The notes under the pieces: generated by a model
What the model was told of the DNA's origin: nothing
The model's database searches: none
Seen by the model: only the letters and a program-made list of their open reading frames with translations
Made by a program: the position numbers and the translations under genes
In this document: positions 5,887 through 8,368 of the stretch, one piece after another
How positions within the stretch are numbered: the first letter of the stretch is position 1
Layout: each line of letters starts with the position of its first letter
NCBI GenBank assembly: GCA_030453005.1
Contig: JAKDLE010000054.1
Location: 1-10,123 of the forward strand
DNA: 10,123 bases
Direction of reading: 5' to 3'
From: Pseudonocardia sp.
GTDB lineage: Bacteria > Actinomycetota > Actinomycetes > Mycobacteriales > Pseudonocardiaceae

Positions 5887-6891
5887 TCAGCGAACCCCGC
5901 GAGCGTCGCAGATGCGCATCACCGCGAGTTCCAGGGCGTACGCGGGGTCGGCGGCCGCTCCTTTGACCTCCGCATTGAGCTGTGCCGCGACGGCGAATGC
6001 CGCGACGAGGCCAGCCGGCCGCCAGTTGCGCACCTGTTGCTGAGCCTTGCGGATCTTTCCGGACGGCATACCGAGCGTGGCGGCCAGCCGGTACGGGTCA
6101 CCGCCTCCAGCCGATCCCACCCTCGCCACCGTGCGGACGCCGTCGGCGAGCGCGTCGGCGATCAGCACGGCGGCCACACCGCCTGCCTGCGCCCACCGCA
6201 ACGCCTCCAGCGCTCCCGCGCGGTCGCCCGCCATCGCCTTGTCGGCCACGGTCCAACCGGTGACCTCGGCGTGGCCGCGGTGGTAGCGCCGCACCGCCAC
6301 CCCGTCCACCGTGCCACCGGTGTCGGCGACCAACTGGGCAGTGGCGGACGCCAGCTCGCGCAGGTCCGCCCCGACGGCCTCGACCACCATCTCGACGGCG
6401 TCACGGCTGATCCGTCCGCCGGCACGACGAACCTCCGCCGCGACGAACTCGGCGCGCTGCTCCGGCCACCTGACCCGCTCGCACGAGGTGACGACGGCTC
6501 CGCCTTTGCGCAGCTGATCTGCGAGCGCCTTGTTGCGCGCCCCACCCGCGTGGGCGACCACCAGCACGATGCCCTCGGCGGGCTCGACCGACTGCTCGAC
6601 GATCGCGCCCGCCAGGTCCTTGCCCGCATCGTGCGCCGCCTGCACCACGACCACGCGGCCCTCCGCGAACAGCGACGGGCTCAACGCATCGGCCAGCGCG
6701 ACCGGGGTGAGCTCGGAGGCGCGGTAGCGACGCAGCTCGGCGCCGGGCTCGGACTCGCGCACCTCCGCGACGACGTCGGCGACGGCCCGTTCGACCAGCA
6801 GCTCCTCCTCGCCGAGCACGAGCCGGACCGGTGCGGGAGCCACCCGGACATGGTGGCGCACGACCCCGACACCACGTGAGCCGCCTCCCAC
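5887..6891 (-). CDS. holA: DNA polymerase III subunit delta
   Basis: At up to 334 residues this matches the usual size of HolA, the clamp-loader delta subunit that opens the beta clamp. The N-terminal domain starts with VRLVLGEEELLVERAVADVV. The central part contains SLFAEGRVVVVQAAHDAGKD and the GIVLVVAHAGGARNKALADQ segment, and the C-terminal helical domain has WTVADKAMAGDRAGALEALR and PAYALELAVMRI. The start is uncertain: GTG 6891 is the longest, but family alignments usually begin a few residues before LVLGEEELL, so GTG 6861 or GTG 6843 is also possible. In related actinobacteria holA follows comEC directly. Here the thrC unit lies between them in the opposite direction, so holA must be transcribed from the 6892-6956 interval or by read-through. 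Confidence 0.95.
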   Translation of the reverse strand: MGGGSRGVGVVRHHVRVAPAPVRLVLGEEELLVERAVADVVAEVRESEPGAELRRYRASELTPVALADALSPSLFAEGRVVVVQAAHDAGKDLAGAIVEQSVEPAEGIVLVVAHAGGARNKALADQLRKGGAVVTSCERVRWPEQRAEFVAAEVRRAGGRISRDAVEMVVEAVGADLRELASATAQLVADTGGTVDGVAVRRYHRGHAEVTGWTVADKAMAGDRAGALEALRWAQAGGVAAVLIADALADGVRTVARVGSAGGGDPYRLAATLGMPSGKIRKAQQQVRNWRPAGLVAAFAVAAQLNAEVKGAAADPAYALELAVMRICDARGVR

Positions 6892-6905
6892 ATCGCGGGC
6901 CCGGC

Positions 6906-6935
6906 TTGGGCGCGGCCCCGATGATGTCGTATCGT
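6906..6935 (+). promoter_or_regulatory. Candidate promoter of the riboswitch-thrC transcript
   Basis: TTGGGC (6906-6911) and TATCGT (6930-6935) are separated by 18 bp and resemble SigA-type -35 and -10 boxes. Transcription would start near 6942, some 15 bases before the riboswitch P1 stem. This is the only reasonable pair I see in the divergent holA/thrC interval. Confidence 0.45.
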
Positions 6936-6956
6936 GACCCGCACAACTGAATATGG

Positions 6957-7086
6957 CTCATCCAGAGGGGCAGAGGGAACGGCCCGTTGAAGCCCCGGCA
7001 ACCGGCGAGACACGCAGCGTCTGACGCATCGACGACGTGCTCGATCACGGTGCCAATTCCGACCCGCACGGTGCGGGGAAGATGAG
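6957..7086 (+). ncRNA. SAM-I (S-box) riboswitch upstream of thrC
   Basis: All hallmarks of the SAM-I aptamer are present in order. P1 is closed by CTCATC (6957-6962) and GATGAG (7081-7086). The conserved AGAGGGGCAGAGGGAAC follows. P2 is GGGGC/GCCCC (6967-6971 with 6992-6996) with GAAGCCCCGGCAACC. A P3 arm spans about 7003-7050, then the near-invariant GGTGCCAATTCC, and finally a P4 arm (CCGCAC/GTGCGG) leading into GGGAAGATGAG. SAM-I riboswitches bind S-adenosylmethionine and usually turn expression off. The 3' strand of P1 overlaps the GAGGAG ribosome binding site of thrC, and only 10 bases separate P1 from the ATG, with no terminator hairpin. I infer that SAM binding blocks translation initiation rather than transcription. 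Confidence 0.96.
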
Positions 7087-7089
7087 GAG
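7084..7089 (+). promoter_or_regulatory. thrC: thrC ribosome binding site overlapping riboswitch P1
   Basis: GAGGAG lies seven bases before ATG 7097 and fixes that start. Its first three bases are the last three of the P1 3' strand, so the site is partly paired when SAM is bound. Confidence 0.75.
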
Positions 7090-7096
7090 ATCTTCG

Positions 7097-8368
7097 ATGT
7101 CGCTCGTTGCTGAGCACTCTGCGTCCACCACCTACGACCTGGGGCCCGCGCGCGCCCTGTCCTGCCGGGAGTGCGGCCACCAGACGCCGCTCGCGGCGGA
7201 GTTCGCGTGCCCCCAGTGCTTCGGCCCCCTCGAGGTGGCCTACGACTTCGGTGGCGTCACCCGCGCCTCCATCGAGGCGGGCCCCCGTTCGATCTGGCGC
7301 TACCGCGGCCTGCTGCCGGTGCCCTCGACCGTGCAGGACCACGCCAACACCGAGCCCGGCATGACCCGGCTCATCAAGGCCGACCGCCTCGGCGCCGCGC
7401 TGGGCCTGCGCAACGTCTGGATCAAGGACGACACCGGCAACCCCACGCACTCGTTCAAGGACCGGGTGGTGGCCGTGGCGCTGGCCGCCGCCCGGGAGCT
7501 GGGCTTCACCGTGCTGTGCTGCCCGTCGACCGGCAACCTCGCCAACGCGGTGGCGGCCGCCGCCGCGCGTGCAGGCTGGGACTCGGTGGTGTTGATCCCC
7601 GAGTCGCTGGAGCAGGCCAAGGTGCTCACCACGGCGGTGTACGACGGCACCCTGCTCGCCGTGGACGGTAACTACGACGACGTCAACCGGCTCGCCACGG
7701 AGCTCGCCGCCGAGCACGAGGACTGGGCGTTCGTGAACGTGAACGTGCGGCCCTACTACGCGGAGGGCTCCAAGACGCTGGGCTACGAGGTGGCCGAGCA
7801 GCTCGGGTGGCGGCTGCCCGAACAGATCGTGGTGCCGGTGGCGTCGGGCTCGCAGCTCACGAAGGTGGACAAGGGCTTCGCCGAGTTCGGCGCACTGGGG
7901 CTCGTGGAGCCCACCCCGTACACGGTGTTCGGGGCGCAGGCCACGGGCTGCTCGCCGGTGGCGAAGGCGTTTGAGGACGGCCAGGACTGGATCCACCCGG
8001 TGCGGCCCGACACCATCGCCCGCTCGCTGGCGATCGGCAACCCCGCCGACGGCCCGTACGTGCTCGACACCGTGCGCCGCACCGGCGGCTCGGTCGGGCA
8101 CGTCACCGACTCCGAGATCGTCGACGGCATCCGCCTGCTCGCCCGCACCGAGGGCGTGTTCGCCGAGACCGCGGGCGGGGTCACGGTGGCCACCACGCGC
8201 AAGCTCATCGAGGCCGGGAGGATCGACCCCGACGCCGAGACGGTGCTGCTGATCACCGGCGACGGCCTCAAGACCCTCGACGCCGTGGCCGGGCACATCG
8301 GCCCGACCGCCACCGTGCCCTCCACGAGCGCAGCGGTGCGCGAGGCGCTGGAGAACCGGGGACGCTGA
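7097..8368 (+). CDS. thrC: Threonine synthase with N-terminal zinc ribbon
   Basis: A 423-residue fold-type II PLP enzyme that would convert O-phosphohomoserine to threonine. The start ATG 7097 has GAGGAG upstream; a longer frame from GTG 7037 would begin inside the riboswitch and is rejected. The N-terminus carries a zinc ribbon with C23-x2-C26 and C38-x2-C41 (LSCRECG, FACPQCFGPLEVAYDF). PLP-binding elements are NPTHSFKDR with the Schiff-base lysine K121, and STGNLAN (144-150); VASGSQLTK follows later in the protein. It stands alone, not in a hom-thrC-thrB operon, and is controlled by a SAM-I riboswitch. It lies between comEC and holA, antisense to both. A related activity on another phosphorylated amino acid cannot be excluded, since paralogues of threonine synthase with other substrates exist. 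Confidence 0.93.
   Translation: MSLVAEHSASTTYDLGPARALSCRECGHQTPLAAEFACPQCFGPLEVAYDFGGVTRASIEAGPRSIWRYRGLLPVPSTVQDHANTEPGMTRLIKADRLGAALGLRNVWIKDDTGNPTHSFKDRVVAVALAAARELGFTVLCCPSTGNLANAVAAAAARAGWDSVVLIPESLEQAKVLTTAVYDGTLLAVDGNYDDVNRLATELAAEHEDWAFVNVNVRPYYAEGSKTLGYEVAEQLGWRLPEQIVVPVASGSQLTKVDKGFAEFGALGLVEPTPYTVFGAQATGCSPVAKAFEDGQDWIHPVRPDTIARSLAIGNPADGPYVLDTVRRTGGSVGHVTDSEIVDGIRLLARTEGVFAETAGGVTVATTRKLIEAGRIDPDAETVLLITGDGLKTLDAVAGHIGPTATVPSTSAAVREALENRGR

Follow-up and report, generated by a model that had tools for sequence, protein, structure and literature searches.

The window examined here (a 10,123-nt stretch from Pseudonocardia sp., i.e., contig JAKDLE010000054.1 of assembly GCA_030453005.1) carries a SAM riboswitch directly in front of a gene annotated as a threonine synthase, which raises the question of what such a switch would control and in which direction. 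SAM-I elements normally shut off methionine and SAM genes. Threonine synthase competes with methionine synthesis for the homoserine-derived branch point, and the initial annotation, made from the sequence alone, accordingly found a SAM OFF switch at odds with simple branch logic. It proposed three ways out: an ON switch, an enzyme that in fact serves methionine or sulfur metabolism, or a cell that throttles both branches together.

A complete SAM-I aptamer overlaps the Shine-Dalgarno sequence

Searching the window with cmscan returned a single family above its gathering score, RF00162, i.e., the SAM-I (S-box) riboswitches, with 79 bits against a curated threshold of 44.4 and a match over the full length of the model (Table 1). 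This is also the only RF00162 match in the host assembly (4.45 Mb in 1058 contigs, 72% complete). P1 consists of six standard pairs, formed between 6957-6962 and 7081-7086; the alignment flags the two outermost pairs of the consensus as non-standard. The 3' strand of P1 shares three of the six bases of the full GAGGAG, or two bases when the overlap is taken against the scored core, AGGAG (7085-7089). A simple scan of positions 6700-7300 found no terminator-like and no sigma-70-like sites. The initial annotation had described the leader in just these terms, as a complete SAM-I aptamer whose P1 3' strand shares bases with the Shine-Dalgarno sequence, with no terminator and with control probably at translation; the covariance model, the alignment and the scan bear out the first three, and the layout of aptamer and Shine-Dalgarno sequence is compatible with control of translation initiation. 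The terminator type of SAM-I riboswitch is best known from Bacillus; the window element differs from it in having no terminator-like site and a P1 that overlaps the Shine-Dalgarno sequence.

Table 1. Features of the riboswitch-gene locus, in window coordinates
Feature	Position	Strand	Basis
SAM-I riboswitch aptamer (RF00162), complete	6955-7088	+	79 bits, E 1e-17, model positions 1-108 of 108
P1 5' strand, CUCAUC, standard pairs only	6957-6962	+	covariance-model alignment
P1 3' strand, GAUGAG, three bases in common with the Shine-Dalgarno sequence	7081-7086	+	covariance-model alignment
Shine-Dalgarno sequence, GAGGAG, seven bases 5' of the ATG	7084-7089	+	read from the sequence
Possible ligand-free hairpin, GAGGAG in the loop, excluding P1 (7078-7083 with 7090-7095)	7078-7095	+	fold model
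metM-like gene, annotated type threonine synthase, 423 aa, PLP-dependent, zinc-ribbon-like N-terminus	7097-8368	+	ORF and profile matches

Modelled leader folds support an OFF switch at translation

In the modelled short leader of the window, the Shine-Dalgarno core was unpaired at 0.98 when folding was unconstrained, compared with 0.50 when P1 was enforced; with P1 enforced in an RNA that includes 35 nt from the start codon onwards, its openness was 0.26. For the short leader, the unconstrained ensemble was 2.4 kcal/mol better than the P1 state without ligand, a difference that is small for such models. When the whole leader (6955-7120) was folded, P1 did not form and the stability was not unusual (z -0.73); enforcing P1 in leaders that stop close to the start codon was more informative.

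A similar tendency was observed across a set of 81 leaders, in 75 of which P1 overlaps the scored Shine-Dalgarno sequence (the overlap is absent in L034, L076, L079, L081 and L083, and no site was scored in L068). The core was more open without enforced P1 in 47 of these leaders when they were modelled short and in 62 when they were modelled longer, the mean openness (free vs P1) being 0.38 vs 0.22 and 0.33 vs 0.13, respectively. Of the 21 Pseudonocardia leaders, only 5 (short) and 14 (longer) have a Shine-Dalgarno sequence that is more accessible when P1 is not enforced. As modelled, leader folding favours an OFF switch at translation and supports it short of proof.

The hairpin listed in Table 1 was considered as the switch helix and dropped, its conservation being limited to some Pseudonocardia. 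When the loop is required to be GAGGAG exactly, the window, L006, L007 and L020 are alone in forming 6-7 pairs; the helix has 5 in L012, L014, L015, L018 and L021, 4 in L008, L011 and L075, and either 3 or no pairs in the remaining leaders that were parsed (63 of the 81; 18 were not). As a separate observation, in leaders L023-L062 the spacer between the Shine-Dalgarno sequence and the start codon is, outside Pseudonocardia, often ACCTCGCG, which is able to pair with the Shine-Dalgarno sequence.

The gene product is distinct from the host's hom-linked threonine synthase

By profile, the window protein passes for a canonical ThrC: it lies above the cut-off of the NCBIfam threonine synthase model TIGR00260 (280.7 vs 167.1 bits), matches the same PLP fold family (PF00291) and has threonine synthases as its best solved relatives (E 1e-48). 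Its nearest named relative is a Pseudonocardia oceani protein (91% over the best segment, in a list that may omit records very near the host). We aligned it in 126 rows, i.e., the window and 125 loci, with two genomes present twice and 5 of 130 loci left out for a stop in their BLAST stretch; each cysteine of the N-terminal CxxC...CxxC (C23, C26, C38, C41) is kept in 118-119 of these rows.

The host, however, has a second threonine synthase on contig C113, the gene of which starts at the end of the homoserine dehydrogenase gene, and the window gene has no such hom linkage, its neighbours being rpsT, holA and a comEC-like frame (comEC by our reading of the frame). The two proteins are 35% identical, and the hom-linked ThrC scores 293.1 bits on TIGR00260, so TIGR00260 does not tell these groups apart. 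Of 126 positions at least 99% invariant in the window group, 56 carry another residue or a gap in the host ThrC, including L148-A149, after a conserved STGN, and A249-S250-G251; judging from the fold family, we take these residues to lie near PLP and substrate. Unlike canonical ThrC, then, the window protein is encoded apart from hom and behind a SAM-I element, and it carries other residues beside conserved motifs. Elsewhere in the window, two similar 191-residue Uma2-family (PF05685) genes lie close together and in the same direction on the minus strand (179-754 and 1092-1667), apparently a tandem duplication.

The window gene is most likely metM

The substrates of MetM are reportedly O-phosphohomoserine and a carrier protein in thiocarboxylated form, MetO (Hasebe et al. 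2024, AEM). SCO4293 of S. coelicolor is presumably the same gene. In the passages of a citing paper that concern it, MetM is a homocysteine synthase found in Streptomyces by Hasebe et al., S. albulus metM is, unlike the Microcystis gene, preceded by a SAM riboswitch, and a cyanobacterial protein with 51.6% identity to MetM shows threonine synthase activity in vitro while apparently not working fully as MetM in the cell (PMC12172450). As in the Streptomyces MetM/MetO route, so far as it is described there, the window holds a threonine synthase homologue behind a SAM riboswitch, more specifically a threonine-synthase-like PLP enzyme that is distinct from the hom-linked ThrC and has SAM-I upstream. 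A further trait of the MetM operon, metO downstream, was found neither at the window locus nor in 80 named relatives.

We therefore consider the window gene most likely to be metM, likening it to S. albulus MetM by description and not by sequence. We assign a probability of about 0.8 to the reading in which the SAM-I aptamer is a translational OFF switch for metM, encoding a homocysteine synthase that uses O-phosphohomoserine and a thiocarboxylated carrier. SAM binding and the sign of control are what we infer for the window element, and the activity of the enzyme would be that reported for the published MetM. Because the MetM-like cyanobacterial protein has threonine synthase activity (PMC12172450), a dual threonine/homocysteine synthase activity of the window protein is possible, and homology by itself does not fix what the enzyme does. 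To judge from the same passages, an upstream SAM riboswitch on metM is already in print, and the window is a further and largely ordinary case of it.

Read as metM, the locus loses its apparent paradox: since the enzyme likely serves methionine synthesis, an ordinary OFF switch is logical, and of the ways out offered by the initial annotation, an enzyme of methionine or sulfur metabolism becomes the likely one, the gene fitting the MetM homocysteine-synthase group. The annotation had also proposed looking for a second thrC beside hom elsewhere in the genome; that pair exists, on C113, and the idea that the window gene is the cell's threonine synthase gives way to it. Its parallel with the plant threonine synthase, which SAM activates as an enzyme, does not apply to a MetM. 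Nor would the enzyme be one without a link to the homoserine branch, a finding that the annotation had named as counting against its view, MetM reportedly drawing on O-phosphohomoserine.

In the mechanism we propose, MetM would convert O-phosphohomoserine to homocysteine, the sulfur being supplied by a thiocarboxylated carrier protein. At high SAM, P1 of the aptamer would close and sequester half of the Shine-Dalgarno sequence, MetM would not be made, and O-phosphohomoserine would remain available to the ordinary ThrC; at low SAM, the Shine-Dalgarno sequence would open and the branch point would be divided between threonine and methionine.

metM is paired with the riboswitch across actinomycete genomes

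Among 197 actinomycete genomes, the host included, 131 have a metM match (E <= 1e-100), and in 131 of 131 an RF00162 element lies on the same strand upstream of the protein match, at a distance of 9-282 nt (median 46 nt). Only 7 of the 138 RF00162 elements in the 197 genomes sit elsewhere than before metM, and the aptamer core motif was found upstream of the gene in all 80 named relatives fetched. The only match in the plasmid collection (L170, NZ_LT559118.1) is a Nonomuraea record labelled plasmid I, which, at 11.85 Mb in size, looks like a chromosome.

The gene's distribution was compared with that of MetX, counted at E <= 1e-60 because none of the 197 genomes passed the 500-bit cut-off of the MetX model, and of MetY, counted at E <= 1e-130. 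metM and metX occur together in 64 genomes, metM only in 67, metX only in 62 and neither in 4, and all 67 metM-only genomes are also without a MetY match. MetX and MetY are thus both missing in 67 of the 131 metM genomes vs 2 of the 66 genomes without metM (MetX is missing in 4 of the latter), with a Fisher value of 3e-11 that ignores kinship and is descriptive only. In the host, MetY and MetX are encoded side by side on C1052, a contig with no SAM-I match; with both present, MetM is not the host's only candidate route to homocysteine.

Downstream of the gene, a MetO-like ORF is present in 37 of 49 class loci, i.e., in 36 of 47 distinct genomes from outside the host's family. This set is non-random (29 loci were the best matches to the window, and 5 of the other 20 were picked after the adjacency had been seen), and one of its loci, L163, ends about 400 nt past the gene. 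Both the class-wide pairing with the riboswitch and the frequent MetO-like neighbour agree with the Streptomyces MetM/MetO route as far as we know its description.

Could the gene nonetheless encode a genuine additional threonine synthase, or an enzyme with both functions, that SAM turns OFF so as to throttle both branches together? Its passing of TIGR00260, the threonine synthases among its closest solved structures (best E 1e-48) and the in vitro activity of the cyanobacterial MetM-like protein in the passages cited above (PMC12172450) would suit this reading. We hold it to be unlikely, given the hom-thrC pair already in the host, the 56 of 126 group-invariant positions that the host ThrC does not keep, a distribution that tracks the absence of MetX/MetY, and the MetO-like carrier gene that often comes next elsewhere. 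As for an ON switch, in which SAM would raise expression, a methionine gene would be fed at high SAM, part of the Shine-Dalgarno sequence lies within P1 itself in the window, and, averaged over the 81 leaders, the core is more accessible when P1 is not enforced. What speaks for it comes from the many relatives outside Pseudonocardia in which a CCTC in the spacer can pair with the Shine-Dalgarno sequence while P1 is open, and in which the ligand-free state is not clearly open; we regard an ON switch as highly improbable. An OFF switch on metM is the reading that we carry forward.

A possible shared sulfur carrier in the host's family

The 80 named relatives belong to Pseudonocardia, Saccharothrix, Lentzea, Actinokineospora, Amycolatopsis and kin, which we take to be Pseudonocardiaceae, and in 0 of 81 loci (the host locus and these relatives) did we find a MetO-like gene beside metM. 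In this respect the window and its relatives differ from the Streptomyces route as reported (Hasebe et al. 2024), and the host differs further in keeping MetX and MetY.

In a 60-genome sample of the host's family, metM was present in 60, MetX in 37 and MetA (PF04204) in none; the search covered these three and the carriers, and other homocysteine routes, through MetY or cystathionine, may exist there. One strong CysO-like carrier (62% or more) was found in 59 of the 60 genomes, and the order mec-cysO-cysM in 30 of 30 fetched loci (the best 30 of 59), that of the host included. A second carrier match, at 29-43% identity to CysO, occurs in 30 genomes. Of the 23 genomes without MetX, 7 have a CysO-like match only, 15 have a weaker second carrier in addition and one (G231) has none (E <= 0.001); the fetched mec-cysO-cysM loci cover 5 of the 7. 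The two complete genomes of the host's genus in the sample have MetX, and CysO is their sole CysO-like match.

Because no metO adjoins the gene and 7 of the 23 MetX-less genomes have CysO only, MetM and CysM may share CysO. That MetM draws on CysO in the host's family is the simplest reading, and we infer from it, tentatively and at slightly less than even odds, that in Pseudonocardiaceae CysO feeds both CysM and a SAM-gated MetM, such that cysteine and methionine synthesis compete and the riboswitch sets the split. The Mec-CysO-CysM cysteine route of actinobacteria is known from Mycobacterium tuberculosis; the host and 29 family loci keep its gene order, yet here, unlike in that route, CysO may also serve MetM. 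A weak, listing-level search of the open-licence literature found no report of CysO serving MetM, and what is possibly new may be local, i.e., metM without metO and a candidate sharing of the carrier with CysM.

In place of CysO, the sulfur donor of MetM in the host's family could be sulfide, ThiS or the second, weaker carrier, a prospect that falls a little below an even chance. The host has two ThiS-family genes, half of the 60 family genomes hold the second carrier, and the 12 of these 30 second carriers that were fetched share 36-48% identity with one MetO and 32-43% with CysO; where present, such carriers are possible sulfur donors. Against this stand the seven MetX-less family genomes in which CysO-like matches are alone at E <= 0.001, and the position of the other carriers, none of which lies near metM in the loci fetched, with 0 MetO-like matches in these 81 loci.

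Several features of the carrier genes were observed along the way. At its end, the host cysO (L088:3528-3613, G000:C56) repeats a 30-base unit about three times head to tail, and the tail of its product reads ILPAVAGG three times, compared with one copy in 29 family relatives, be it a real change or an assembly fault. Among the CysO frames of L121-L149, 19 of 29 continue beyond the di-glycine by one to eleven residues and the other 10 stop there; many CysO would need trimming, perhaps by the adjacent JAB-domain (Mec) protein. In L171, L172 and L178, a second sulfur-carrier-like gene adjoins one for a 360-388 residue protein with LAIGTRKGLWLA near its start.

Implications

With the gene read as metM, the apparent threonine synthase paradox becomes a naming problem: a methionine route would be shut by its own product, SAM. 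Genes of the window group are likely labelled threonine synthase, since TIGR00260 accepts the window protein and the host ThrC alike, and the riboswitch-gene pairing in 131 of 131 genomes offers a simple marker for the MetM route. For the host's family, metM without metO poses a testable question, namely whether one carrier serves both cysteine and methionine synthesis.
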